Shown: positions 8,331 to 55,008 of the stretch, piece by piece
How positions within the stretch are numbered: the first letter of the stretch is position 1
Layout: each line of letters opens with the position of its first letter
NCBI GenBank assembly: GCA_032622095.1
Contig: CP136061.1
Coordinates: 20,710,991 to 20,774,990, forward strand
Length of the DNA stretch: 64,000 bases
Reading direction: 5' to 3'
From: Siphonodentalium dalli
Lineage: Eukaryota; Mollusca; Scaphopoda; Gadilida; Siphonodentaliidae
Translations under genes and position numbers: made by a program
The notes under the pieces: generated by a model
The model's database searches: none
Seen by the model: the letters and a program-made list of their open reading frames with translations, nothing else
Told to the model about the DNA's origin: nothing

Positions 8331-8613
8331 GTCAAAATCACAACATAGTAACATAATATAATTATAAAACTCTATAGAGCGTGAATAATTAAATCACAAC
8401 ATAGTAACATAATATAATTATAAAACTCTATAGAGCGTGAATAATTAAATCACAACAAAGTAACATAATATAATTATAAAACTCTAGAGCGTGAATAATT
8501 AAAATCACAACATAGTAACATAATATAATTATAAAACTCTATAGAGCGTGAATAATTAAATCACAACAAAGTAACATAATATAATTATAAAACTATAGAG
8601 CGTGAATAATTAA
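8331..8613. repeat. Tandem repeat, ~60-bp unit, about 5 copies
   Basis: The unit contains aatcacaacatagtaacata, atataattataaaactctat, agagcgtgaataatt. Two shorter related units precede it near 7780-7900 (cacaacatagtaacacataa). Confidence 0.9.
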
Positions 8614-8773
8614 AAGTTAGATAGCTGAAAAACAAATGGTATGATTGATTCAGCTAAAACTCAACATTAAAAGTTATATGAAAACTAAAATGCTAACTCA
8701 GTCATGTATACCTGTGCTAACTTAACAGCTAATAGTATGGTACAAAATAGGGTGTGATTGTGTTGAAAAAAAA

Positions 8774-9364: not shown

Positions 9365-9798
9365 ATACATAGATGTTTGTTTATTTAGTCAGGGGTTTGT
9401 TTCTTTAGTCTGGGATTAACGTCATTTCAGCTGCCAGGCACCATATCCCAATGAGTAGATGTTAAGAAGAGTTGAAATAATTTAGTACTAATTTAAGAAA
9501 ATAATTTATCAGGTAGGTAAAGCCACATGGCATCGGAATAGGTTGATAAATATCTGAAATACTTGTCCCAGAAAAGTAAAATTTTGAACATGATAATCGG
9601 TCTACGAGCCATTGCAGCCCCATTTGTATTCAATGAAATTCTGAAAACGGAATAATGTGTGACTGTCTGAAAGAAACAAAACACATTTTTTCAGCACTAT
9701 ATCGACAAGTTTGTTTGGGAAAACTTCCGCTTATGTTTTGAGATATCAATTACCAAATTGTGTATACATAATTTTGGGGTTTGAACGAGTCATGTCTG

Positions 9799-13956: not shown

Positions 13957-14010
13957 ACTGAAACATTAAATCATCATATAATCAACAATAAGAGAAAAAC
14001 ATAAACAGCA

Positions 14011-14163
14011 CTGGAATATATGTAAACTAGCACTGGAATATATGTAAACAGCACTGGAATATATGTAAACTAGCACTGGAATATATGTAAACTAGCACTG
14101 GAATATATGTAAACTAGCACTGGAATATATGTAAACTAGCACTGGAATATATGTAAACTAGCA
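14011..14163. repeat. 22-bp tandem repeat, about 7 units
   Basis: Unit agcactggaatatatgtaaa ct; one unit lacks the 'ct' pair. Not next to any recognised exon. Confidence 0.95.
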
Positions 14164-18484: not shown

Positions 18485-18547
18485 CTCTCTGTAGGTCACT
18501 AGTACTCCCATTATCATCATCATCATGAGACAACCGGTCCTCATCTT
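18485..18547 (-). CDS. AK9: AK9 exon: Asp-rich linker, seed of the 52-bp minisatellite
   Basis: 63 bp, 21 codons, phase 1 at both ends. Entered in phase 1 it reads EDEDRLSHDDDDNGSTSDLQ R. Acceptor GGCACATTACAG, donor AGAG|GTAATA. It sits between the exons at 21.8 and 12.6 kb. Its acceptor and first five bases (CATTACAG|AAGAT) are repeated ~18 times in the array directly upstream in the intron. The phase and acidic content match its neighbours; no conserved domain. Confidence 0.65.
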
Positions 18548-19483
18548 CTGTAATGTGCCATAGTGTTTGTCATAGATTACATTATGTTCAATATATCTTC
18601 TGTAATGTGCCATAGTGTTTGTCATAAATTACATTATGTTCTAAATATCTTCTGTAATGTGCCATAGTGTTCATCATAGATTACATTATGTTCAATATAT
18701 CTTCTGCAATGTGCCATAGTGTTTGTCATAGATTACATTATGTTCAATATATCTTCTGTAATGTGCCATAGTGTTCATCATAGATTACATTATGTTCTAC
18801 ATATCTTCTGTAAAGTGTCATAGCGTTTCTCATAGATTACATTATGTTCTACATATCTTCTGTAATGTGTCATAGCGTTTCTCATAGATTACATTATGTT
18901 CTAAATATCTTCTGTAATGTGCCATAGTGTTTGTCATAGATTACATTATGTTCAATATATCTTCTGTAATGTGCCATAGTGTTTGTCATAGATTACATTA
19001 TGTTCTAAATATCTTCTGTAATGTGCCATAGTGTTCATCATAGATTACATTATGTTCAATATATCTTCTGCAATGTGCCATAGTGTTTGTCATAGATTAC
19101 ATTATGTTCAATATATCTTCTGTAATGTGCCATAGTGTTCATCATAGATTACATTATGTTCTACATATCTTCTGTAAAGTGTCATAGCGTTTCTCATAGA
19201 TTACATTATGTTCTACATATCTTCTGTAATGTGTCATAGCGTTTCTCATAGATTACATTATGTTCTAAATATCTTCTGTAATGTGCCATAGTGTTCATCA
19301 TAGATTACATTATGTTCAATATATCTTCTGTAATGTGCCATAGTGTTTGTCATAGATTACATTATGTTCAATATATCTTCTGTAATGTGCCATAGTGTTC
19401 ATCATAGATTACATTATGTTCTACATATCTTCTGTAAAGTGTCATAGCGTTTCTCATAGATTACATTATGTTCTACATATTTA
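18548..19483 (-). repeat. 52-bp minisatellite built from a 3' splice site (~18 units)
   Basis: On the minus strand each unit reads CACATTACAG|AAGATATA then ttgaacataatgtaatctat, gacaaacactatgg. The acceptor AG is kept in every unit. Variant units ('taaagtgtcatagcgtttctc') recur at about 18811, 19175 and 19435, spaced 364 and 260 bp (7 and 5 units), so a higher-order repeat is present. It is directly joined to the exon at 18485-18547. Confidence 0.95.
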
Positions 19484-20846: not shown

Positions 20847-21100
20847 CAAGCCTTGAAATAGGGTGTCTGTCATTTGCAGAATGAGGTTCCCAGAGGGTGA
20901 ATTTAGTGATGCTACCCCGCATAGCGGGCTAGCATCACAAAATTCACCCTCTGGGGACCTCATTCTGCTTACAACTCAGCAGAATAAGGTCCCCAGAGGG
21001 TGAATTTGGTGATGCTAGCCTGCTATGCGGGGTAGCATCACTAAATTCTCCCTCTGGGGACCTCATTCTGCAAATGACAGGCACACTATTTCAAGGCTTG
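20847..21100. mobile_element. 'GAATGAGGTCC' palindrome element
   Basis: CAAGCCTTGAAATAG at the left and CTATTTCAAGGCTTG at the right. Two palindromes (20877-20968 and 20981-21071) built of GCAGAATGAGGTCCCCAGAG and GGTGAATTTAGTGATGCTA with their inverses. The complete element is nearly one nested palindrome. Confidence 0.85.
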
Positions 21101-22822: not shown

Positions 22823-23076
22823 CAAGCCTTGAAATAGTGTGTCTGTCATTTGCAGAATGAGGTCCCCAGAGGGTGAATTTAGTGATGCTACCCCCACATA
22901 GCGGGCTAGCATCACCAAATTCACCCTCTGGGAACCTCATTCTGCTGAGGTGTAAGCAGAATGAGGTCCCCAGAGGGTGAATTTGGTGATGCTAGCCTGC
23001 TATGCGGGGTAGCATCACTAAATTCACCCTCTGGGGACCTCATTCTGCAAATGACAGACACACTATTTCAAGGCTT
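22823..23076. mobile_element. 'GAATGAGGTCC' palindrome element
   Basis: Ends CAAGCCTTGAAATAGTGTG and CACACTATTTCAAGGCTTG. Two palindromes as in the copy at 20847-21100. It lies 87 bp from the donor of the AK9 exon at 23163. Confidence 0.88.
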
Positions 23077-24672: not shown

Positions 24673-24710
24673 CTATAAAGGAAGAATATATATGTCAGCA
24701 TTAGGCAGAT

Positions 24711-25450
24711 GTTAAAGACAACCGCGCCACCCAAATCAGGCTTATGTTAAACACAACCGTGACACCCAAATCAGGCTTATGTTAAATGCAACCGCGCCAC
24801 CCAAATCAGGCTGATGTTAAACACAACCGCGCCACCCAAATCAGGCTGATGTTAAACACAACCCCACCACCCAAATCAGGCTGATGTTAAACATAACCCC
24901 ACCACCCAAATCAGGCTTATGTTAAATGCAACCGCGCCACCCTAATCAGGCTGATGTTAAACGCAACCGCGCCACCCAAATCAGGCTTATGTTAAATGCA
25001 ACTGCGCCACCCAAATCAGGCTGATGTTAAACACAACCGCGCCACCCAAATCAGGCTGATGTTAAATGCAACCGCGCCACCCAAATCAGGCTGATATTAA
25101 ACACAACCATGCCACCCAAATCAGGCTGATGTTAAATGCAACCATGCCACCCAAATCAGGCTGATCTTAAATGCAACTGTGCCACCCAAATCAGGCTGAT
25201 CTTAAACACAACCGTGCCACCCAAATCAGGCTGGTAATAAACACAACTGCGCCACCCTAATCAGACTGTTAAATGCAACCATGCCACCCAAATCAGGCTG
25301 ATATTAAACACAACCATGCCACCCAAATCAGGCTGATGTTAAATGCAACCATGCCACCCAAATCAGGCTGATGTTAAATGCAACCATGCCTCCCAAATCC
25401 GGCTGATGTTAAATGCAACCATGCCACCCAAATCAGGCTGATGTTAAATG
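24711..25450. repeat. 35-bp minisatellite (about 21 units)
   Basis: Unit ccacccaaatcaggctgatg ttaaacacaaccgcg. Units vary at cgcg/catg/cgtg and acaca/atgca. It starts about 40 bp upstream (in transcription) of the AK9 exon at 24420-24672, but I find no copy of the splice site in the unit. Confidence 0.95.
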
Positions 25451-25718
25451 CACACACCAACGAAACATTCCACCTCTGGATCGGCTAGCTCTGAGTTTAG
25501 TTCAGTTCCTAAAAATCACACTATAAAGTATCATTCACATATATTTTACTGAGTTTGTAGACACATTTCATCATGACGCTCATGTATGAATCAGAAATTT
25601 GAATCAGAAAATGGGTATGTTCGATTGCAGCTCAGTGCAAGTTTGTATAAAAATATACCGCAATTATTTAGTACTGATTATAAGTTTTTCCGACATATAA
25701 AACGTGAATAACAAGGTT

Positions 25719-25890
25719 GCATGCATGGGTACACAGAACAATGGTCGCACGCACGGGTACACAGAACAATGGTCGCACGCACAGGTACACAGAACAATGG
25801 TCGCACGCTCGGGTACACAGAACAATGGTCGCACGCACGGGTACACAGAACAATGGCTGCACGCACAGGTACACAGAACAATGGTCGCAG
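25719..25890. repeat. 28-bp minisatellite (6 units)
   Basis: Unit cgcacgcacgggtacacaga acaatggt. Since 28 is not a multiple of 3, it gives open frames in several frames; these are artefacts. Confidence 0.95.
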
Positions 25891-36252: not shown

Positions 36253-36342
36253 CTTCCTCACTATCAGGGTCAACATCCCCATCTGGGGATTCCCCTTCAG
36301 CATCAAATTCGTTTTCTGCCTCAGCCGAAGCTAAAGCCAATG
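36253..36342 (-). CDS. AK9: AK9 exon: acidic linker, phase 1-1
   Basis: 90 bp. It completes a Gly/Ala codon (G + CA), then reads LALASAEAENEFDAEGESPD, GDVDPDSEE plus the first base of the next codon. Acceptor ttgtttag, donor gtacag. It starts and ends in phase 1 and so can be skipped or repeated without changing frame. It lies within the insertion that splits the second kinase unit, where vertebrate AK9 also has a long acidic low-conservation stretch. Confidence 0.75.
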
Positions 36343-37694: not shown

Positions 37695-40600
37695 TATAGT
37701 TTAATGATAATTTACCACCTCCCTAGCCACACAGCTGAGCCACATGTTAATTATTATATAGATAGTTTGATGATAATTTACCTCCTTCCATAACCACATG
37801 TTAATTATTATATAGATAGTTTAATGATAATTTACCTCCTTCCATAACCACATGTTAATTATTATATAGATAGTTTAATGATAATTTACCTCCTTCCATA
37901 ACCACATGTTAATTATTATATAGATAGTTTGATGATAATTTACCTCCTTCCATAACCACATGTTAATTATTATATAGATAGTTTAATGATAATTTACCTC
38001 CTTCCATAACCACATGTTAATTATTATATAGATAGTTTAATGATAATTTACCTCCTTCCATAACCACATGTTAATTATTATATAGATAGTTTAATGATAA
38101 TTTACCTCCTTCCATAACCACATGTTAATTATTATATAGATAGTTTGATGATAATTAACTCCTTCCATAACCACATGTTAATTATTATATAGATAGTATG
38201 ATGATAATTAACTCCTTCCCTAGCCACATGTTAATTATTATATAGATAGTTTAATGATAATTAACTCCTTCCCTAGCCACATGTTAATTATTATAAAGAC
38301 AGTATGATGATAATTAACTCCTTCCCTAGCCACATGTTAATTATTATAAAGACAGTATGATGATAATTAACTCCTTCCCTAGCCACATGTTAATTATTAT
38401 ATAGATAGTTTAATGATAATTAACTCCTTCCCTAGCCACATGTTAATTATTATAAAGACAGTATGATGATAATTAACTCCTTCCCTAGCCACATGTTAAT
38501 TATTATAAAGACAGTATGATGATAATTAACTCCTTCCCTAGCCACATGTTAATTATTATAAAGACAGTATGATGATAATTAACTCCTTCCCTAGCCACAT
38601 GTTAATTATTATATAGATAGTTTAATGATAATTTACCTCCTTCCCTAGCCACATGTTAATTATTATATAGATAGTTTAATGATAATTAACTCCTTCCCTA
38701 GCCACATGTTAATTATTATAAAGAGAGTATGATGATAATTAACTCCTTCCCTAGCCACATGTTAATTATTATATAGATAGTTTAATGATAATTAACTCCT
38801 TCCCTAGCCACATGTTAATTATTATATAGATAGTTTGATGATAATTAACTCCTTCCCTAGCCACATGTTAATTATTATATAGATAGTTTAATGATAATTA
38901 ACTCCTTCCCTAGCCACATGTTAATTATTATATAGATAGTTTGATGATAATTTACCTCCTTCCCTAGCCACATGTTAATTATTATAAAGATAGTATGATG
39001 ATAATTTACCTCCTTCCCTAGCCACATGTTAATTATAAAGATAGTTTAATGATTATTTACCTCCTTCCCTAGCCACATGTTAATTATTATATAGATAGTT
39101 TGATGATAATTGACCTCCTTCCCTAGCCACATGTTAATTATTATATAGATAGTTTGATGATAATTGACCTCCTTCCATAACCTTAGGTTAATTATTACAA
39201 AGAGAGTATGATGATAATTAACTCCTTCCCTAGCCACATGTTAATTATTATATAGATAGTTTAATGATAATTACCTCCTTCCCTAGCCACATGTTAATTA
39301 TTATAAAGACAGTATGATGATAATTAACTCCTTCCATAGCCACATGTTAATTATTACAAAGAGAGTATGATGATAATTAACTCCTTCCCTAGCCACATGT
39401 TAATTATTATATAGATAGTATGATGATAATTAACTCCTTCCCTAGCCACATGTTAATTATTATATAGATAGTTTGATGATAATTAACTCCTTCCCTAGCC
39501 ACATGTTAATTATTATAAAGAGAGTATGATGATAATTAACTCCTTCCCTAGCCACATGTTAATTATTATATAGATAGTTTAATGATAATTTACCTCCTTC
39601 CCTAGCCACATGTTAATTATTATATAGATAGTTTGATGATAATTAACTCCTTCCCTAGCCACATGTTAATTATTATAAAGAGAGTATGATGATAATTAAC
39701 TCCTTCCCTAGCCACATGTTAATTATTATATAGATAGTTTGATGATAATTTACCTCCTTCCCTAGCCACATGTTAATTATTATATAGATAGTTTGATGAT
39801 AATTAACTCCTTCCCTAGCCACATGTTAATTATTATAAAGAGAGTATGATGATAATTAACTCCTTCCCTAGCCACATGTTAATTATTATATAGATAGTTT
39901 AATGATAATTTACCTCCTTCCCTAGCCACATGTTAATTATTATATAGATAGTTTAATGATAATTTACCTCCTTCCCTAGCCACATGTTAATTATTACAAA
40001 GAGAGTATGATGATAATTAACTCCTTCCCTAGCCACATGTTAATTATTATAAAGACAGTATGATGATAATTAACTCCTTCCCTAGCCACATGTTAATTAT
40101 TATAAAGATAGTATGATGATAATTTACCTCCTTCCCTAGCCACATGTTAATTATAAAGATAGTTTAATGATTATTTACCTCCTTCCCTAGCCACATGTTA
40201 ATTATTATATAGATAGTTTGATGATAATTGACCTCCTTCCCTAGCCACATGTTAATTATTATATAGATAGTTTGATGATAATTGACCTCCTTCCATAACC
40301 ACATGTTAATTATTACAAAGAGAGTATGATGATAATTAACTCCTTCCCTAGCCACATGTTAATTATTATATAGATAGTTTAATGATAATTGACCTCCTTC
40401 CCTAGCCACATGTTAATTATTATATAGATAGTTTGATGATAATTGACCTCCTTCCATAACCTTAGGTTAATTATTACAAAGAGAGTATGATGATAATTAA
40501 CTCCTTCCCTAGCCACATGTTAATTATTATATAGATAGTTTAATGATAATTAACTCCTTCCCTAGCCACATGTTAATTATAAAGAGAGTATGATGATAAT

Positions 40601-43402
40601 TAACTCCTTCCCTAGCCACATGTTAATTATTATATAGATAGTTTAATGATAATTAACTCCTTCCCTAGCCACATGTTAATTATAAAGAGAGTATGATGAT
40701 AATTAACTCCTTCCCTAGCCACATGTTAATTATTATATAGATAGTTTAATGATAATTTACCTCCTTCCCTAGCCACATGTTAATTATTATATAGATAGTT
40801 TAATGATAATTTACCTCCTTCCCTAGCCACATGTTAATTATTATATAGATAGTATGATGATAATTAACTCCTTCCCTAGCCACATGTTAATTATTACAAA
40901 GAGAGTATGATGATAATTAACTCCTTCCCTAGCCACATGTTAATTATTATATAGATAGTTTAATGATAATTAACTCCTTCCCTAGCCACATGTTAATTAT
41001 TACAAAGAGAGTATGATGATAATTAACTCCTTCCCTAGCCACATGTTAATTATTATATAGATAGTTTAATGATAATTAACTCCTTCCCTAGCCACATGTT
41101 AATTATTATATAGATAGTTTAATGATAATTAACTCCTTCCCTAGCCACATGTTAATTATTACAAAGAGAGTATGATGATAATTAACTCCTTCCCTAGCCA
41201 CATGTTAATTATTATATAGATAGTTTAATGATAATTAACTCCTTCCCTAGCCACATGTTAATTATTATAAAGATAGTTTAATGATAATTTACCTCCTTCC
41301 CTAGCCACATGTTAATTATTATATAGATAGTTTAATGATAATTTACCTCCTTCCCTAGCCACATGTTAATTATTACAAAGAGAGTATGATGATAATTAAC
41401 TCCTTCCCTAGCCACATGTTAATTATTATATAGATAGTTTAATGATAATTAACTCCTTCCCTAGCCACATGTTAATTATTATAAAGAGAGTATGATGATA
41501 ATTAACTCCTTCCCTAGCCACATGTTAATTATTACAAAGAGAGTATGATGATAATTAACTCCTTCCCTAGCCACATGTTAATTATTATATAGATAGTTTA
41601 ATGATAATTAACTCCTTCCCTAGCCACATGTTAATTATTATAAAGAGAGTATGATGATAATTAACTCCTTCCCTAGCCACATGTTAATTATTATATAGAT
41701 AGTTTAATGATAATTACCTCCTTCCCTAGCCACATGTTAATTATTATAAAGACAGTATGATGATAATTTACCTCCTTCCCTAGCCACATGTTAATTATTA
41801 TATAGATAGTTTGATGATAATTAACTCCTTCCCTAGCCACATGTTAATTATTACAAAGAGAGTATGATGATAATTAACTCCTTCCCTAGCCACATGTTAA
41901 TTATTATATAGATAGTTTAATGATAATTAACTCCTTCCCTAGCCACATGTTAATTATTATAAAGAGAGTATGATGATAATTAACTCCTTCCCTAGCCACA
42001 TGTTAATTATTATATAGATAGTTTAATGATAATTAACTCCTTCCCTAGCCACATGTTAATTATTATATAGATAGTTTAATGATAATTAACTCCTTCCCTA
42101 GCCACATGTTAATTATTACAAAGAGAGTATGATGATAATTAACTCCTTCCCTAGCCACATGTTAATTATTATATAGATAGTTTAATGATAATTAACTCCT
42201 TCCCTAGCCACATGTTAATTATTATATAGATAGTTTAATGATAATTAACTCCTTCCCTAGCCACATGTTAATTATTATATAGATAGTTTAATGATAATTA
42301 ACTCCTTCCCTAGCCCTTGTTAATTATTATATAGATAGTTTAATGATAATTACTCCTTCCCTAGCCACATGTTAATTATTATATAGATAGTTTATTGATA
42401 ATTAACTCCTTCCCTAGCCACATGTTAATTATTATATAGATAAGTTTAATGATAATTAACTCCTTCCCTAGCCACATGTTAATTATTATATAGATAGTTT
42501 AATGATAATTAACTCCTTCCCTAGCCACATGTTAATTATTATATAGATAGTTTAATGATAATTTAACTCCTTCCCTAGCCACATGTTAATTATTATATAG
42601 ATAGTTTAATGATAATTAACTCCTTCCCTAGCCACATGTTAATTATTATATAGATAGTTAATGATAATTAACTCCTTCCTAGCCACATGTTAATTATTAT
42701 ATAGATAGTTTAATGATAATTAACTCCTTCCCTAGCCACATGTTAATTATTATATAGATAGTTTAATGATAATTAACTCCTTCCCTAGCCACATGTTAAT
42801 TATTATATAGATAGTTTAATGATAATTAACTCCTTCCCTAGCCACATGTTAATTATTATATAGATAGTTTAATGATAATTAACTCCTTCCCTAGCCACAT
42901 GTTAATTATTATATAGATAGTTTAATGATAATTAACTCCTTCCCTAGCCACATGTTAATTATTATATAGATAGTTTAATGATAATTAACTCCTTCCCTAG
43001 CCACATGTTAATTATTATATAGATAGTTTAATGATAATTAACTCCTTCCCTAGCCACATGTTAATTATTATATAGATAGTTTAATGATAATTAACTCCTT
43101 CCCTAGCCACATGTTAATTATTATATAGATAGTTTAATGATAATTAACTCCTTCCCTAGCCACATGTTAATTATTATATAGATAGTTTAATGATAATTAA
43201 CTCCTTCCCTAGCCACATGTTAATTATTATATAGATAGTTTAATGATAATTAACTCCTTCCCTAGCCACATGTTAATTATTATAAAGAGAGTATGATGAT
43301 AATTAACTCCTTCCCTAGCCACATGTTAATTATTACAAAGAGAGTATGATGATAATTAACTCCTTCCCTAGCCACATGTTAATTATTATATAGATAGTTT
43401 AA
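37695..43402 (-). repeat. 53-bp minisatellite, main block (~107 units)
   Basis: Unbroken tandem array in the intron between the AK9 exons at 48.6 and 36.3 kb. The leftmost ~8 units read 'ccataaccacatg' and keep ttacctcc (minus strand GGAG|GTAAAT, a good donor). Most units further right read 'cctagccacatg' with ttaactcc. Variant units (tatatag/tataaag/tacaaag, tttaatg/tttgatg/tatgatg) alternate in patches, which shows that blocks of several units were copied together. At about 42.2-43.3 kb the units are almost identical, which looks like the most recently homogenised part. Short open frames in it are artefacts of the repeat. Confidence 0.97.
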
Positions 43403-46246
43403 AGACCAGCTGAATAATACAATTAATTTAGCTCCAAACATATCTAAATATGTCTTAACTCATGCTAAATAAGGTTTATAACATGTATCCTTTCCATTTT
43501 GTTCACATTTTTACAAAAAAGTACTATTTCCAGACATTTGAATAAAACGGCTTCTTTGTTTACAATAGTCATTTTTGAATCGGGTGTTTCCGTCGCGACT
43601 CGGAAATGACGTCACCGAGGGTACACAGACGGGAGAAATTTTATGCGCCGTTTTTAAAATCACGTATTTTAAAATCGTCTTTTTTTTATTGTTTTTTATT
43701 TTTTTGAAGAATAAAACGTATTCGTCGCTGCATGGCTGCAAACTGTAGCCATAAATGTTCAAGTGGCACAAGAATGAATGCAGCCATTCAACAACAGTGG
43801 ACGGCGTTTGTCCACAACCAGAGTTTGGAATGTACTGTCACAATACAGCTGCTTGTGTTCCAAGCACTTTGAAGAAGGATCTTTCACAAATATTGTGAAA
43901 TGCAAGCTGGGACATACAAAAGTGTGATTCACATTGTCAAACAAAATGTTATCTACGTGAATACCGGTACCAATAAACACCCATGCACTCACGGTCCTTG
44001 TGGTGGGGGTGGGGGGGGGGGGGGTATCAGTATAGTCTAGTAGACCTACGGCTACGTCGTAGTACATGGATCATAGTTCATACATGAGGATTTACTTTCG
44101 GCGATGTGTAAATCGTGACTTGTTCTACTCAAGCGTGAATACATAAATCGGCACCTTGACAATACAAAATGTCAGCTATGCATGACAATATGCAAAATTA
44201 AGCATGATTTACAAGGCTACCAATCAACAATCAGTGTAATATAAGTGACTGTTCTACGTTAATTCTAGTCTAACATGACGTAAACATCGATTAGAACCTG
44301 AACTTGAAATGTAATGATTCAATGAAAATCATTAGTAAGTCTACTCACCAGATTGAATGTTTCGAATAATTAAAATCCAATACGAATCACCAATGTATTA
44401 ATCCATTTGTGAAAGCATATAAATGAAATCAGACGAAAAGGTACCGCACTGCATCCACCGTGATTCCACGTGTTACGAGCTGTGGCGATCATGTCAGTTT
44501 GTCACGAATTTTCGCCAATATTTCCACCAACAAAACATTAATTCCTTGTATTCCAATCGAATTGTTCAGAGAAATTCTTGACGGTACTTCGAATTATATA
44601 CATGGCTACGAATTTATATGACTACATCAGTCATTAAGCAGTAACCGAGCATTAACAAACTGGTATTTGAACTATAAACACAAACAAATATTATGCAGGT
44701 GATGTGACCTATACATCTGACCTTACCTCGACGTCATACACGTGCGTGTGCATATCCATACTCGACAATAATTTGTCTAAAGTTGACTATGAAACACCTA
44801 CTATCGTAGAAGATAGATCAATTATGGAATTATGTTACCTTTTAACATGCCTTCAGTCCACTGCATGTATGGGTATTATTTTTAAAATAAGAACAGCAAT
44901 CGCGAGGGACTATTTTGTTTTTGCGAACGTAGCTTGCGTAAAATATCGTTCGATTTGTGATCAAAGCGCAGTACCGTAGGCCTCGTAAGTACTACGTTCG
45001 TCATATGCACAGGAACGCCCACATTTCCACCGAGTGTGGTAGATATATAGGCCCTAGATAGTTGGTCCGTGTGGAGATTGTGCGTTACTGGTCTTGATTC
45101 ATATGAAACAATAAATTGAATAAACATAATACATACTGAAAATCATATAAATACGTACGCCTTTTGCGGTTTTTGTTTTGTTGACAGATTGTCAAAAAAT
45201 GTGTTTTATATGATAATCTAAAGGCCATGCATGATACTGCATTTAGACTTCAGGTCAGTATCGGTACGTAGACAGCAGTTTGGAAATTCTTGATAGTATA
45301 AAATGTTTGATGTTTCACACTTACATGTATACCTATACCATTAGTGACAAGACATTCTCAATGAGAACTTGGGTGTCTATATAAAGCCAGTTGAAAAATT
45401 TAAACATAAAGAGCATTTAATTGGAGGATTATAGGGTCTACTAGTAATGGAATATATATGTCAAGCTTTTGCGGATTTCTGCTCACTATGTTCATGACTG
45501 ACTAGATGAAATAATTACATACCAACAAATCTAATACCCAGTATCGTGAATATCAAGTTAAAACATAATTGTTTATTTAATCATGGAGCGATCTACTTGT
45601 GATATGCAGTTTCTGCATAAATGGTGAAAGGATGTGCCCCCCCCCCCCCCCACCCGCAGTTAACTGCTTGACGTACACAACATAAGTTGAAAATTATACA
45701 CCACATACAGCCATGATACAGGCTGAACTGTCTAACTGTTTGAATTTCAATTCAGTTATTGTTGAGGATTGGGAAATGTGTTGACGTTTAGACCAACGTA
45801 CAGCAGCCTATCTTTCTACTTTTGGTCCGAAAGAGGGGGAACCGGTGCAAATGCATGCGATGATTTATTGTCGGATCGTCGGTCACCGGTCTCTCGCCGA
45901 TATGTGGAGGATCATTGTCATCAGGCTCGAATGCAGCAAGATCAAAATCATCTTTACAACGTTAGCGCTGACCTGCCATCGCCATTATAGCCGCACGTTG
46001 CCAATGACGCAAAGCAGAACTGTGCATTTGTGTTCCCTCCGTGACGTCATGTCACGTGCTCCTCCAGTAGCCATGTGCGCGCAGTGCAAAATGAAAACAA
46101 ATCTTCGGCGACTGTTTCGTTCCCAAGATATAAAAAATAATTGCAGGATATTTTGACGGGATTTTTTGCGGATTTGTGTTAAGGGGACTTAGATACACAC
46201 GGGATGATATATCAATACTCAAATTAGGTTACAGTTCAGCTGGACT
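43403..46246. mobile_element. 2.84-kb TTAA-flanked DNA transposon relic (Kolobok/piggyBac-like)
   Basis: Flanked by TTAA at 43399-43402 and 46247-46250. Removing it plus one TTAA restores the array unit gatagtttaatgataatta. The ends are short inverted repeats: AGACCAGCTGAA on the left, and AGTCCAGCTGAA for the right end read inward (11 of 12 match). TTAA duplication is known for piggyBac and Kolobok. A degraded THAP zinc-finger segment inside favours Kolobok, whose proteins I recall carrying THAP domains. Also holds a G14-class tract near 44010-44025 and a C14-class tract near 45637-45651. No intact transposase. Confidence 0.7.
43755..43927 (+). pseudogene. Degenerate THAP zinc-finger segment (transposase remnant)
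   Basis: Three frames must be combined to follow the domain: MFKWHKNE at 43755 (compare the F-x-F-P-K-x-x-x part of THAP), then AAIQQQWTAFVHNQ (the conserved Trp), then CLCSKHFEEGSFTN with the C-x2-C-x2-H-F core at 43850-43870. The C-S-x-H-F-x-x-x-x-F string is the most specific THAP hallmark. At least two frame breaks, and a stop about 60 bp further on, show that it is dead. It lies 350 bp inside the left end of the TTAA-flanked element. Confidence 0.55.
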
Positions 46247-46250
46247 TTAA

Positions 46251-47780
46251 TGATAATTAACTCCTTCCCTAGCCACATGTTAATTATTATAAAGAGAGTA
46301 TGATGATAATTAACTCCTTCCCTAGCCACATGTTAATTATTATATAGATAGTTTAATGATAATTAACTCCTTCCCTAGCCACATGTTAATTATTATATAG
46401 ATAGTTTAATGATAATTAACTCCTTCCCTAGCCACATGTTAATTATTACAAAGATAGTATGATGATAATTAACTCCTTCCCTAGCCACATGTTAATTATT
46501 ATATAGATAGTTTAATGATAATTAACTCCTTCCCTAGCCACATGTTAATTATTACAAAGATAGTATGATGATAATTAACTCCTTCCCTAGCCACATGTTA
46601 ATTATTATATAGATAGTTTAATGATAATTAACTCCTTCCCTAGCCACATGTTAATTATTATAAAGAGAGTATGATGATAATTAACTCCTTCCCTAGCCAC
46701 ATGTTAATTATTATATAGATAGTTTAATGATAATTAACTCCTTCCCTAGCCACATGTTAATTATTATATAGATAGTTTAATGATAATTAACTCCTTCCCT
46801 AGCCACATGTTAATTATTATATAGATAGTTTAATGATAATTAACTCCTTCCCTAGCCACATGTTAATTATTACAAAGATAGTATGATGATAATTAACTCC
46901 TTCCCTAGCCACATGTTAATTATTATATAGATAGTTTAATGATAATTAACTCCTTCCCTAGCCACATGTTAATTATTATAAAGAGAGTATGATGATAATT
47001 AACTCCTTCCCTAGCCACATGTTAATTATTATATAGATAGTTTAATGATAATTTACCTCCTTCCCTAGCCACATGTTAATTATTATAAAGACAGTATGAT
47101 GATAATTAACTCCTTCCCTAGCCACATGTTAATTATTACAAAGAGAGTATGATGATAATTAACTCCTTCCCTAGCCACATGTTAATTATTATATAGATAG
47201 TTTAATGATAATTAACTCCTTCCCTAGCCACATGTTAATTATTATATAGATAGTATGATGATAATTAACTCCTTCCCTAGCCACATGTTAATTATTATAT
47301 AGATAGTTTAATGATAATTACCTCCTTCCCTAGCCACATGTTAATTATTATAAAGACAGTATGATGATAATTTACCTCCTTCCCTAGCCACATGTTAATT
47401 ATTATAAAGACAGTATGATGATAATTAACTCCTTCCATAGCCACATGTTAATTATTACAAAGAGAGTATGATGATAATTAACTCCTTCCCTAGCCACATG
47501 TTAATTATTATATAGATAGTTTAATGATAATTAACTCCTTCCCTAGCCACATGTTAATTATTATATAGATAGTATGATGATAATTAACTCCTTCCCTAGC
47601 CACATGTTAATTATTATATAGATAGTTTAATGATAATTAACTCCTTCCCTAGCCACATGTTAATTATTATATAGATAGTATGATGATAATTAACTCCTTC
47701 CCTAGCCACATGTTAATTATTACAAAGAGAGTATGATGATAATTAACTCCTTCCCTAGCCACATGTTAATTATTATATAG
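46251..47780 (-). repeat. 53-bp minisatellite, middle block (~29 units)
   Basis: Same unit as the flanking blocks (consensus on the plus strand tccctagccacatgttaatt, attattatatagatagttta, atgataattaac). It mixes two alternating unit types, '...tatatagatagtttaatg' and '...tataaagagagtatgatg' or '...tacaaagagagtatgatg'. Most units here read ttaactcc instead of ttacctcc, which removes the GTAAAT donor on the minus strand. Confidence 0.95.
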
Positions 47781-48106
47781 AGGATCTCACATGAGTTTCT
47801 ATTTTATACGGAATTTATCAACCGAGTTCACTAAATTCGATTTGAGCCGAGGTTTACCGAGGCTCAAATCGAATTTAGAGGACGAGGTTGATAAATTACG
47901 TATAAAATAGGACGAGTGTGAGATACCTTTTATCACATGATCAAATAAACCCGAAGCAACGCCAAATATTCATCGAAAACAACAATCATAAACTACAGCG
48001 ATCGCAAGTTATTTGAAGAACGCCTGACGTCATCGCACGCGCTGATATTAAACGTGTCTATTACCGATAATTATGAAACTGATTTTATGGCCAAATTATG
48101 TGATAA
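47781..48106. mobile_element. 326-bp hairpin element inside the minisatellite (ATAG target duplication)
   Basis: It interrupts a 53-bp array unit. Left flank ...attattatATAG, right flank ATAGatagtttgatg. Deleting the insert plus one ATAG restores a perfect unit. The ends are AGGATCTCACATGAG and CAAATTATGTGATAA, sharing only a short inverted TCACAT. The first ~143 bp form a strong near-palindrome (gaatttatcaaccgag... against ...ggttgataaatta) around gagccgaggtttaccgaggctc. No coding capacity. Probably a non-autonomous DNA element; family unknown. Confidence 0.75.
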
Positions 48107-48556
48107 ATAGATAGTTTGATGATAATTTACCTCCTTCCCTAGCCACATGTTAATTATTATATAGAGAGTATGATGATAATTAACTCCTTCCCTAGCCACA
48201 TGTTAATTATTATATAGATAGTTTAATGATAATTTACCTCCTTCCCTAGCCACATGTTAATTATTATAAAGACAGTATGATGATAATTTACCTCCTTCCC
48301 TAGCCACATGTTAATTATTATAAAGACAGTATGATGATAATTTACCTCCTTCCCTAGCCACATGTTAATTATTATATAGATAGTTTAATGATAATTTACC
48401 TCCTTCCCTAGCCACATGTTAATTATTATATAGATAGTTTGATGATAATTTACCTCCTTCCCTAGCCACATGTTAATTATAAAGATAGTTTAATGATTAT
48501 TTACCTTCTTCCCTAGCCACATGTTAATTATAAAGATAGTTTAATGATTATTTACC
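48107..48556 (-). repeat. 53-bp minisatellite, exon-proximal block (~8 units)
   Basis: Starts at the donor of the exon at 48557. On the minus strand each unit reads AGGGAAGNAG|GTAAAT followed by the first ~40 intron bases, then a new copy. The two units touching the exon keep the exon form exactly (AGGGAAGAAG then GTAAATAATC) and lack a few bases of the 'attatt' part. This block is cut off from the next one by the 326-bp insert at 47781-48106. Confidence 0.95.
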
Positions 48557-48712
48557 TTCTTCCCTTGCTTGTGCCTCAGCTTCCATTTGTTCCTTTATTT
48601 TGGCCTTGACTGTAGTAATGGCTTGCTCCGTTGCCTCATCTTTGGCTTGTTGTAGCACCTTATTTTTCTCCTCTTCTATTCTCGGTTTGATTAGTTCATC
48701 CATATTCAGCAC
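48557..48712 (-). CDS. AK9: AK9 exon: helix after second P-loop, seed of the 53-bp minisatellite
   Basis: Reads VLNMDELIKPRIEEEKNKVL, QQAKDEATEQAITTVKAK. The strict frame hits TAA at about 48600. With one more A in the AAA run (plus-strand TTT, about 48598-48602) it continues IKEQMEAEAQAREE and ends in phase 1, as the next exon requires. The helix is charged and coiled-coil like, as in other AK9 proteins. Its donor AGGGAAGAAG|GTAAAT is copied in every unit of the array that follows directly downstream in the intron. The acceptor is tctttaactcag. Confidence 0.82.
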
Positions 48713-49075: not shown

Positions 49076-49257
49076 CTTTGATCCATATTTCTCTGAGAGC
49101 TGTTGACAGAGTGTGCTTTTACCAGACATAGGCGGTCCCAAAACAGACATTTTACAGGGTGGTCTCGGCTGTGGGGGGTAACAAATAAGGTCGCGGATTC
49201 TTCATGAACTTCTCTAAAGCTTCTGCACTTGACATGCAATAGATTTTATCCAAGAAG
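49076..49257 (-). CDS. AK9: AK9 exon: second P-loop, carries a 1-bp frameshift
   Basis: Completes the Ser of the previous exon, then reads FLDKIYCMSSAEALEKFMKN and PRPYLLPP. After a one-base shift it continues PQPRPPCKMSVLGPPMSGKS, TLCQQLSEKYGSK. GPPMSGKST is the Walker A loop of the second kinase unit. In the given sequence the run of six G on the plus strand (49173-49178) is one base too long. The strict frame then runs into TAA a few codons later, before the P-loop. With five, the exon is 181 bp and its phase (2 to 0) fits both neighbours. The acceptor is atttttatttcag and the donor gttagt. Confidence 0.88.
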
Positions 49258-52964: not shown

Positions 52965-53850
52965 CAATAATACATATCATGATACACTTAATCAGTGCTC
53001 TCCAATGATACAATACACATCATGATACACTTAATCAGTGCTCTCCAACGATATGATACATATCATGATACACTTAATCTGCGCTTTCCAATGATATGAT
53101 ACATATAATGATACACTTAAATGGTGCTTCCCAGTGATGATACATTACATGATACCCTTAAAAGGGTACTTTCCAATGATATGATACATATCATGATACA
53201 ATTAATCGGTGCTTTCCAACGGTATGATACATTTGATACACTTAATCAGCACTTTCCAATGATATGATACATTACATGATACACTTAATCAGTGCTCTCC
53301 AACGATATGATACATATAATGATACACTTAATCTGCGTTTCCAATGATATGATACATATAATGATACACTTAAATGGTGCTTTCCAATGATATGATACAT
53401 TACATGATACCCTTAAGAGGGCACTTTCCAATGATATGATACATATCATGATACAATTAATCGGTGCGTTCCAACGATATGATACATATAATGATACACT
53501 TAATCAGCACTTTCCAATTATATGATACATTACATGATACACTTAATCAGTGCTTTCCAATGATATGATACATTACATGATACACTTAATCTGTGCAATT
53601 CAATGATATGATACATATCATGATACACTTAATCAGTGCTTTCCAATGACATGATACATACCATGATACACTTAATCTGTGCAATTCAATGATATGATAC
53701 ATACCATGATACACTTAATCAGTGCTTTCCAATGATATGATACATACCATGATACACTTAATCTGTGCAAATCAATGATATGATACATATCATGATACAC
53801 TTAATCAGTGTTTTTCAATGATATGATACATCTCACTTAATCAATGACGT
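52965..53850. repeat. 43-bp minisatellite (about 20 units)
   Basis: Unit aatgatatgatacatatcat gatacacttaatcagtgctt tcc, itself containing the palindrome atgatacatatcat. It lies between the AK9 exons at 52.7 and 54.0 kb. Several shorter or changed units. Confidence 0.93.
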
Positions 53851-54091: not shown

Positions 54092-54630
54092 CTATGAGAG
54101 ATATTAGCATATATATAATATAAAAACTAATTTTTATTATAGGTAGATTTGCAGTAGTAAATGAGCTTCAGACAAACTTACATGTGATGTGACAGCAGGT
54201 TGCTGAGCATAGTGAAATTGTCATCAATTACAGTTCACTATATAAATTGTGATGTTATCCTATAACAGAATTTTACAAGTCTGTGAAACACATTTGATTG
54301 ACATATTTCCTTGTAAATAGATGAGCAGCATACACCACCATTCTTATGTGTAGACTGTTTGCAGTAATTAATTTTGGAGGTAAAATTTCAAACTTATTAA
54401 GGATTAATTCAGTTTGAATTAAGGGCTAAATATTTACCAATCCATGTTCAGGTGTCTTGATTTCTGATATGATACAACTGATATGATTGGTGTGTTCAGC
54501 AGTTTGATTGTCGTGAAATATATCCTTAAAATGGGCATACTGTGTGAGCACTGAACAATCAGTTAAAAACATTTAAATATGTGCACAATTGATATGCCTT
54601 TAAACTAACTAGCTGTAAGCCTGTAATTAC

Positions 54631-54692
54631 CTCTTTGGGTTTTGGGGGAGGGTCATAAACATCCTTGGTGTAGAGATCGCCAGTGATTGATA
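54631..54692 (-). pseudogene. Partial copy 3 of the AK9 LID exon
   Basis: Outermost copy. ITGDLYTKDVYDPPPKPKE is in frame and ends GAG|GTAATT, a usable donor. Like the others it has no acceptor of its own. The four units share the motif tagagatcgccagtgattg at 54671, 54763, 54852 and 54941 (spacings 92, 89 and 89 bp). Confidence 0.72.
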
Positions 54693-54718
54693 TGCCTTTA
54701 ACTAATTAGCTGTAATTA

Positions 54719-54784
54719 ACCTCCTCCGTTTTTGGGGGAGGGTGTCGTAAACATCCTTGGTGTAGAGATCGCCAGTGATTGATA
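54719..54784 (-). pseudogene. Partial copy 2 of the AK9 LID exon (frameshifted)
   Basis: Third unit of the ~90-bp tandem repeat. It keeps ITGDLYTKDVYD, but then carries an inserted base before the proline run and a changed end (…AAACGGAGGAG|GTTAATTA), so both the frame and the donor have decayed. No acceptor is present. Confidence 0.7.
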
Positions 54785-54810
54785 TGCTTTTAATTAACTA
54801 GCTGTAATTA

Positions 54811-54873
54811 CCTCTTTGGGTTTTGGGGGCGGGTCATAAACATCCCTGGTGTAGAGATCGCCAGTGATTGATA
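54811..54873 (-). pseudogene. Partial copy 1 of the AK9 LID exon
   Basis: Repeats the end of the LID exon in frame (ITGDLYTRDVYDPPPKPKE) together with a donor GAG|GTAATT. The exon's first ~15 codons and its acceptor are missing, so it should not be spliced as a normal exon. It is spaced 89 bp from the true exon as part of a four-unit tandem repeat. Confidence 0.75.
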
Positions 54874-54900
54874 TGCCTTCAACTAACTAGCTGTATTTAC

Positions 54901-55008
54901 CTCTTTGGGTTTTGGGGGCGGGTCATAAACATCCTTAGCGTAGAGATCGCCAGTGATTGGATCAATCTTCAACCCTTTCCTCCGTTTCTCCAGATCTTTG
55001 TCAGGAAT
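54901..55008 (-). CDS. AK9: AK9 exon: LID-like segment
   Basis: 108 bp, exactly 36 codons, phase 0 at both ends: IPDKDLEKRRKGLKIDPITG, then DLYAKDVYDPPPKPKE. The D-P-x-T-G-x-x-Y...P-P string is the LID motif of adenylate kinases (HPxSGRxY...PPK in classic enzymes), which closes over the active site. The acceptor follows cttttgaaac|ag and the donor is GAG|GTAAAT. The 3' two thirds of this exon plus its donor exist as three further partial copies in the next intron (54631-54873). Confidence 0.88.

Follow-up and report, generated by a model that had tools for sequence, protein, structure and literature searches.

The 64,000-nucleotide stretch of the Siphonodentalium dalli genome considered here (contig CP136061.1, positions 20,710,991 to 20,774,990; the window, whose coordinates are used throughout) carries on its minus strand a series of predicted exons of an adenylate kinase 9 (AK9) gene, one of which runs directly into a long minisatellite. 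This array, A6, runs from 48566 down to 37739 in 144 units, is followed by a single degenerate end unit, and has a length of about 7.7 kb. The units were cut at a conserved AGGGAAG anchor (143 anchors, with one merged pair split to give 144 units). They measure 53 bp in 99 cases, 54 bp in 35, 51 bp in six and 50 bp in two, the other two being broken by inserts, and 36 distinct strings (two insert-broken) occur among them. Tandem Repeats Finder (TRF) scores the distal part at 9366 and the proximal part at 2723. Unit cutting and TRF together bear out the ~145 units, ~7.7 kb and ~53-bp period given in a preliminary description of this DNA. The first unit starts inside the exon, at the tenth base counted back from the exon end. 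Specifically, exon 48712-48556 ends ...GCAAGGGAAGAAG, the donor GTAAATAATC starts at 48555, and the last ten exon bases, AGGGAAGAAG, are the start of the array; the last exon base is 48556, one base from the 48557 read previously.

The exons were predicted with a home-made score whose splice-site weights came from general knowledge, and some of their bounds are approximate. The joined translations of exons 49168-49076, 48712-48556 and 36342-36253 match PDB entry 9d2f_A, 'Adenylate kinase 9' (E 2.5e-13), in an alignment that covers residues 1-82, with exon 48712-48556 ending at residue 83; this match supports the AK9 identity proposed earlier. The first kinase domain of the gene scores 52.3 bits with Pfam ADK against a cut-off of 26.8, and the short second piece, taken alone, scores 21.7 bits with ADK, below that cut-off, and passes AAA_17 and Hydin_ADK. 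Splice phases are consistent along the exons that start at 49168, pass through 48712 and 36342 and reach 26105, and again between 21912 and 18547.

At the place of the donor, the 144 units read GTAAAT in 32 cases (one of them the genuine donor), GTCAAT in six, GTAATT in three, TTAATT in 101, and TTAAAT and TAATTA in one each. GT is kept in 41 of the 144 units, six of which are weakened, and gone in 103, of which 101 share a single form. We call a donor disabled where GT is missing at the donor place, which is a prediction, as a GT one base upstream persists in such units. The calculated U1 pairing of the disabled units lies between -1.7 and -3.3 kcal/mol (-1.7 for the common form), whereas the genuine donor reaches -6.8, intact units of the common type -6.9, and the 15 predicted donors of the gene a median of -6.7. 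In A6, 34 decoys equal the genuine donor by this calculation, and use of a decoy in any unit would add Gly-Lys followed by a stop, the open reading frame ending at 48551. From the exon outward, the array comprises seven intact units (the first being the genuine donor), a mostly disabled interior with 18 scattered intact units, 14 of them in the distal half, and seven intact units at the far end. None of 20,000 shuffles preserved seven intact units at both ends when the 11 units of other types were counted as not intact. The earlier picture of intact edges and a mostly dead middle is thus real, with the addition of the 18 intact units inside. Table 1 lists the features of the locus.

Table 1. 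Predicted AK9 exons, junction arrays and inserts in the window.
Feature	Coordinates	Strand	Description
AK9 exon at start of A6	48556..48712	-	157 nt, phase 0 to 1; exon scoring and AK9 match
Next AK9 exon	36253..36342	-	acceptor TTTAG about 1.35 kb past the array, outside it
Preceding AK9 exon	49076..49168	-	P-loop GPPMSGKST
AK9 exon feeding A8	54901..55008	-	exon scoring
Predicted AK9 exon at end of A3	18485..18547	-	phase fits preceding exon 21912-21812
A6, exon-proximal part	46250..48565	-	first seven units are the genuine donor and six decoys, all intact
A6, distal part	37738..43402	-	TRF counts 106.6 copies; the seven units at the far end are intact
A6, degenerate terminal unit	about 37695..37735	-	reads AGGGAGGTGGTAAATTATC...
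Insert splitting A6	43403..46249	.	2.85 kb; TTAA flanking both sides; short inverted ends AG(T/A)CCAGCTGAA
Insert within one A6 unit	about 47783..48105	.	about 0.32 kb; 384-bp unit; internal inverted repeat by eye
A8, second junction array	54621..54959	-	89 bp, about 4 copies; last 59 nt of exon 55008-54901 plus donor and about 30 nt of intron
A3, third junction array	18543..19480	-	52 bp, 18 copies; acceptor TTACAG or TTGCAG plus exon bases AAGAT

The AK9 gene holds three junction arrays besides A6, namely A8, A3 and A9, together with a probable fourth, A11. A9 (locus L021, 4761-8502; window -5239 to -1498) comprises 25 copies of 150 bp that are 98% alike, each made of the donor GTAAGT and about 129 3′-terminal bases of an AK9 exon, and all 25 donors, the genuine site included, are intact. 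Units 1-9 of A9 keep the reading frame of the exon, and if another donor were chosen there, the protein could grow in 50-residue steps. We rejected A9 as a selected coding repeat (150 bp being 50 codons), since the frame breaks after nine units. AG is kept in all 18 acceptors of A3, again including the genuine site. A11 (window -16000 to -14806) is a 35-bp array that reaches an acceptor; its copies resemble that acceptor by eye, 35 of the 36 matched copies are without AG, and we consider it a probable junction array.

Further repeats lie in and around the gene. A 19-bp unit present 104 times (locus L020, window -11990 to -10009) starts 12 bases past an AK9 donor. A 35-bp array of 21.5 copies at 24703-25452 would nearly fill the intron between exon 24672 and a possible 51-nt exon at 25508-25458, if that small predicted exon is real. 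Inspection by eye of the arrays at 25710-25889, 52970-53835, 14002-14163 and 8335-8614 found no exon boundary inside them, nor did the placement test for the first three. Repeats of 103 bp (GCAGAATGAGGTCCCCAGAGGGTGAATTT...) at 20876-21071 and 22852-23048, present also in flanking loci, have the look of a dispersed element. The TTAA and short inverted ends of the insert at 43403-46249 form what we take to be a piggyBac-like footprint. The GC content of the window is 35%.

The derivation of the A6 units from the AK9 exon-intron junction, as originally suggested, is supported by two lines of sequence comparison. A 160-base array query gave 66 matches in the 2,226,750,531-base genome, and all 66 lie inside A6; within the reach of this search, which scored only the best candidates and skipped very common words, the array therefore looks local and not like a dispersed satellite. 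In addition, A8 and A9 hold 59 and about 129 coding bases, respectively, so copying there would have run from exon to array. Growth by unequal exchange, also proposed earlier, fits a block of similar units that recurs 1118 bp apart in A6. The two units nearest the exon had been singled out as closest to it; this is not unique to them, as the second unit differs from the exon unit by one change and the interior units at 40189 and 39071 by two each.

Minisatellites of this kind have been named mirages, and the founding paper is said to be that of Canestro et al. from 2002, on amphioxus Adh3. Junction-spanning minisatellites are reported in the amphioxus Adh3, globin, TnC and PGBD5 genes (PMC3087553, PMC3902484), with units of 10-160 bp, a range that includes the 50-54 bp of A6 (PMC3087553). 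The globin mirages BflGb6 and BflGb9 evolve in concert, with the cluster boundaries excluded from homogenisation, and reverse-transcription PCR suggests that splicing is undisturbed (PMC3087553). A6 likewise has a homogenised interior with its edges set apart, as seen in the unit map, the distances and the edge runs, and carries its splice signal in many but not all units (GT in 41 of 144; AG/GT in amphioxus). Unlike BflGb6, with three to six units, it has about 145, and four, probably five, arrays occur in one gene of a 2.2-Gb genome (9 contigs), which is larger than that of amphioxus; the amphioxus case has reverse-transcription PCR behind it, whereas ours is built on sequence. Among the open-access papers listed by our searches, we found no mirage under that name outside cephalochordates. 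We conclude that A6 is probably a mirage.

Two other known processes involve similar structures. In human segmental duplications, internal tandem repeats at exon-intron boundaries yield novel introns, many of them transcript-supported (PMC2812944); those repeats, like A6, are minisatellites at boundaries that are able to alter gene structure, but A6 sits within an existing intron. Intron gain through tandem genomic duplication with AGGT (reviewed in PMC3443670) shares with A6 the tandem copies of a segment that bears a splice site. We rejected this process for A6 because it takes both splice sites from the duplicated segment; no new intron is present, and A6 stops about 1.35 kb short of the acceptor at 36342.

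Arrays of similar architecture were found at other genes. In a survey of myosin and chaperonin genes, junction-spanning arrays are present at 6 of 78 exon loci, where the loci are exon places and not independent genes, with several per gene or paralogue set (L104 and L109 lie in one region). The first myosin set was the best 30 of 85 matches, from which 12 redundant loci were dropped as paralogues or overlaps for the test; twenty additional myosin places were chosen from the remaining list before sequence inspection; and 40 of 53 chaperonin (CCT) places were taken, those omitted being mainly near-duplicates and two long single-exon matches. In the myosin paralogues L029 and L031, the latter among the dropped loci, the same spanning array has a 67-bp unit in about two copies, built from the exon end ..DLIEK and its donor, and alignment with known myosins covers the exon over its full length. 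One myosin exon has the scallop myosins 2ec6 and 2os8 as its top matches, narrowly ahead of vertebrate myosins; a molluscan haemocyanin domain was looked for without success, a result that carries no information. The 40 chaperonin exons yielded three donor-side arrays (L067, L070 and L077), and the 20 further myosin exons yielded a donor-side array (L109) and an acceptor-side array (L100); at the myosin locus L104 an array stops five bases short of the acceptor. Exon bounds at L067, L070, L077, L100, L104 and L109 were refined by eye during the survey. Together with AK9, and with the probable A11 included, the tally is eight donor and three acceptor arrays.

A search for a triple donor pattern, AGGTAAGT, across the genome gave 2268 matches as against 2417 for the reversed control, that is, no enrichment per match; a few large arrays dominate among the matches listed, and the count says little per array. 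One large satellite (G000 C1:231.99-232.06 Mb) has a unit that holds AGGTAAGT or a close variant. Chaperonin matches occur in close pairs of equal or nearly equal score at G000 C7:133.43/133.49, C1:54.10/54.27, C1:68.37/68.54 and C8:26.61/26.65 Mb, which would be either recent local duplications or retained haplotypes.

We propose that A6 was seeded by a tandem duplication of about 51 bp spanning the AK9 donor junction. The outermost donor, joined to the complete exon, would still work and the extra copies would become intron; because that donor still functions in this proposal, the extra copies would not be removed. Unequal exchange and segmental duplication would then expand the array to about 145 units. 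A variant without GT, carrying two linked changes (GGTAAATT to GTTAATT), would spread through the interior, and the array edges, less exposed to exchange, would retain the older intact form. Donor choice in vivo, the reduced exchange at the edges and the neutrality of the process are points that we infer. For the junction arrays in general, the most economical view is that tandem duplications arise everywhere at a high rate and that arrays at junctions are tolerated because the exon-proximal site is retained. We consider it probable that the junction arrays are side products of such frequent duplication and do no harm.

Several results count against parts of this proposal. When a crude neutral simulation was run 400 times, only 3% of the outcomes had at least seven intact units at each edge, and the simulated arrays averaged 47 runs of like units compared with the 27 observed; uniform exchange therefore fails to fit, and one has to assume that exchange is reduced at the edges. 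The stretch of exon common to the A6 units is short, at ten bases (AGGGAAGAAG). Finally, array edges in the AK9 gene fall near predicted junctions more often than expected: 7 of 28 lie within 60 bp of one, with 1.74 expected (P=0.0022), in a test designed after the pattern was known. Four of 14 AK9 arrays contain a junction, as against 0.90 expected (P=0.01) when placements covering a whole exon are rejected, and there is no excess when such placements are allowed (4 vs 3.82 expected, P=0.57). These figures follow the correction of one exon end by 52 bases, before which they were 1.76 (P=0.0017), 0.87 (P=0.009) and 3.8 (P=0.57). Post hoc as it is, the excess of edges leaves room for a seeding bias at junctions. 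In the survey of 78 loci, 6 of 14 arrays span a junction, with 5.2 expected (P=0.40), a comparison of low power, as each locus covers little sequence beyond the exon at its centre.

Selection against decoys, one of two explanations offered at the outset for the disabled middle, would have purged spliceable units and left disabled donors mid-array. It would account for the 103 of 144 units without GT at the donor place and the six more that are weakened, for the cost of a decoy that leads at once to a stop, for the near-complete loss of AG in A11, and for the edge pattern that the neutral simulation seldom yields. However, the six decoys nearest the exon, which should be the most dangerous ones if exon definition holds, are all intact, and a single form makes up 101 of the 103 disabled units. 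Independent changes are not concentrated in the donor to a significant extent either, with 7 of 28 distinct variants falling in nine donor columns (of 54) where 4.7 are expected (P=0.17), and A9 and A3 retain every one of their 25 donors and 18 acceptors. We therefore regard selection as unlikely; the uniformity of the disabled form favours the other explanation, the spread of one dead variant, by exchange. At the chaperonin locus L070, four consecutive disabled copies lie mid-array with three intact copies distal to them, and the second copy is likewise disabled, which qualifies the likeness to the edge pattern of A6.

The short exon overlap would also suit a history in which the minisatellite was already in place and the exon then took over the donor of its first unit by exon sliding. 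This order of events is improbable, given that the AK9 protein alignment reaches one residue before the exon end, that the unit is unmatched elsewhere in the genome search, and that the coding bases in A8 and A9 are best explained as exon-derived. It is very unlikely that the array is a functional splicing regulator whose decoy U1 sites slow splicing or create a poison extension: the 34 decoys that match the genuine donor in calculated pairing and the immediate stop that follows decoy use would both serve such a role, but the presence of junction arrays in several unrelated genes points to a mutational process of a general kind. Assembly errors are common in long tandem repeats, and the length of A6 may be inexact even with a correct architecture. 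That A6 as a whole is an artefact, a short repeat collapsed or expanded, is nonetheless scarcely credible: the unit map is ordered and contains 36 different strings, both inserts have a defined position, and other genes show this architecture with just two copies.

Were splicing at A6 normal, the exon would be chosen correctly in front of 34 donor copies of equal calculated U1 pairing, and position together with exon definition, not site strength, would be decisive. This one genome provides junction arrays in which most, some or none of the sites are disabled, a series ready for testing the question. More tentatively, the sequence data raise the possibility that junction-spanning duplications, perhaps seeded at junctions, occur so often in this animal as to be a leading source of both intron length and decoy splice sites. 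Its spliceosome would then reliably choose the exon-proximal copy from tens of identical sites of equal strength, and the animal would serve as a natural test of whether a splice site is chosen for its position and not its strength. Frequent duplications of this kind would also feed the growth of existing introns and the gain of new ones.

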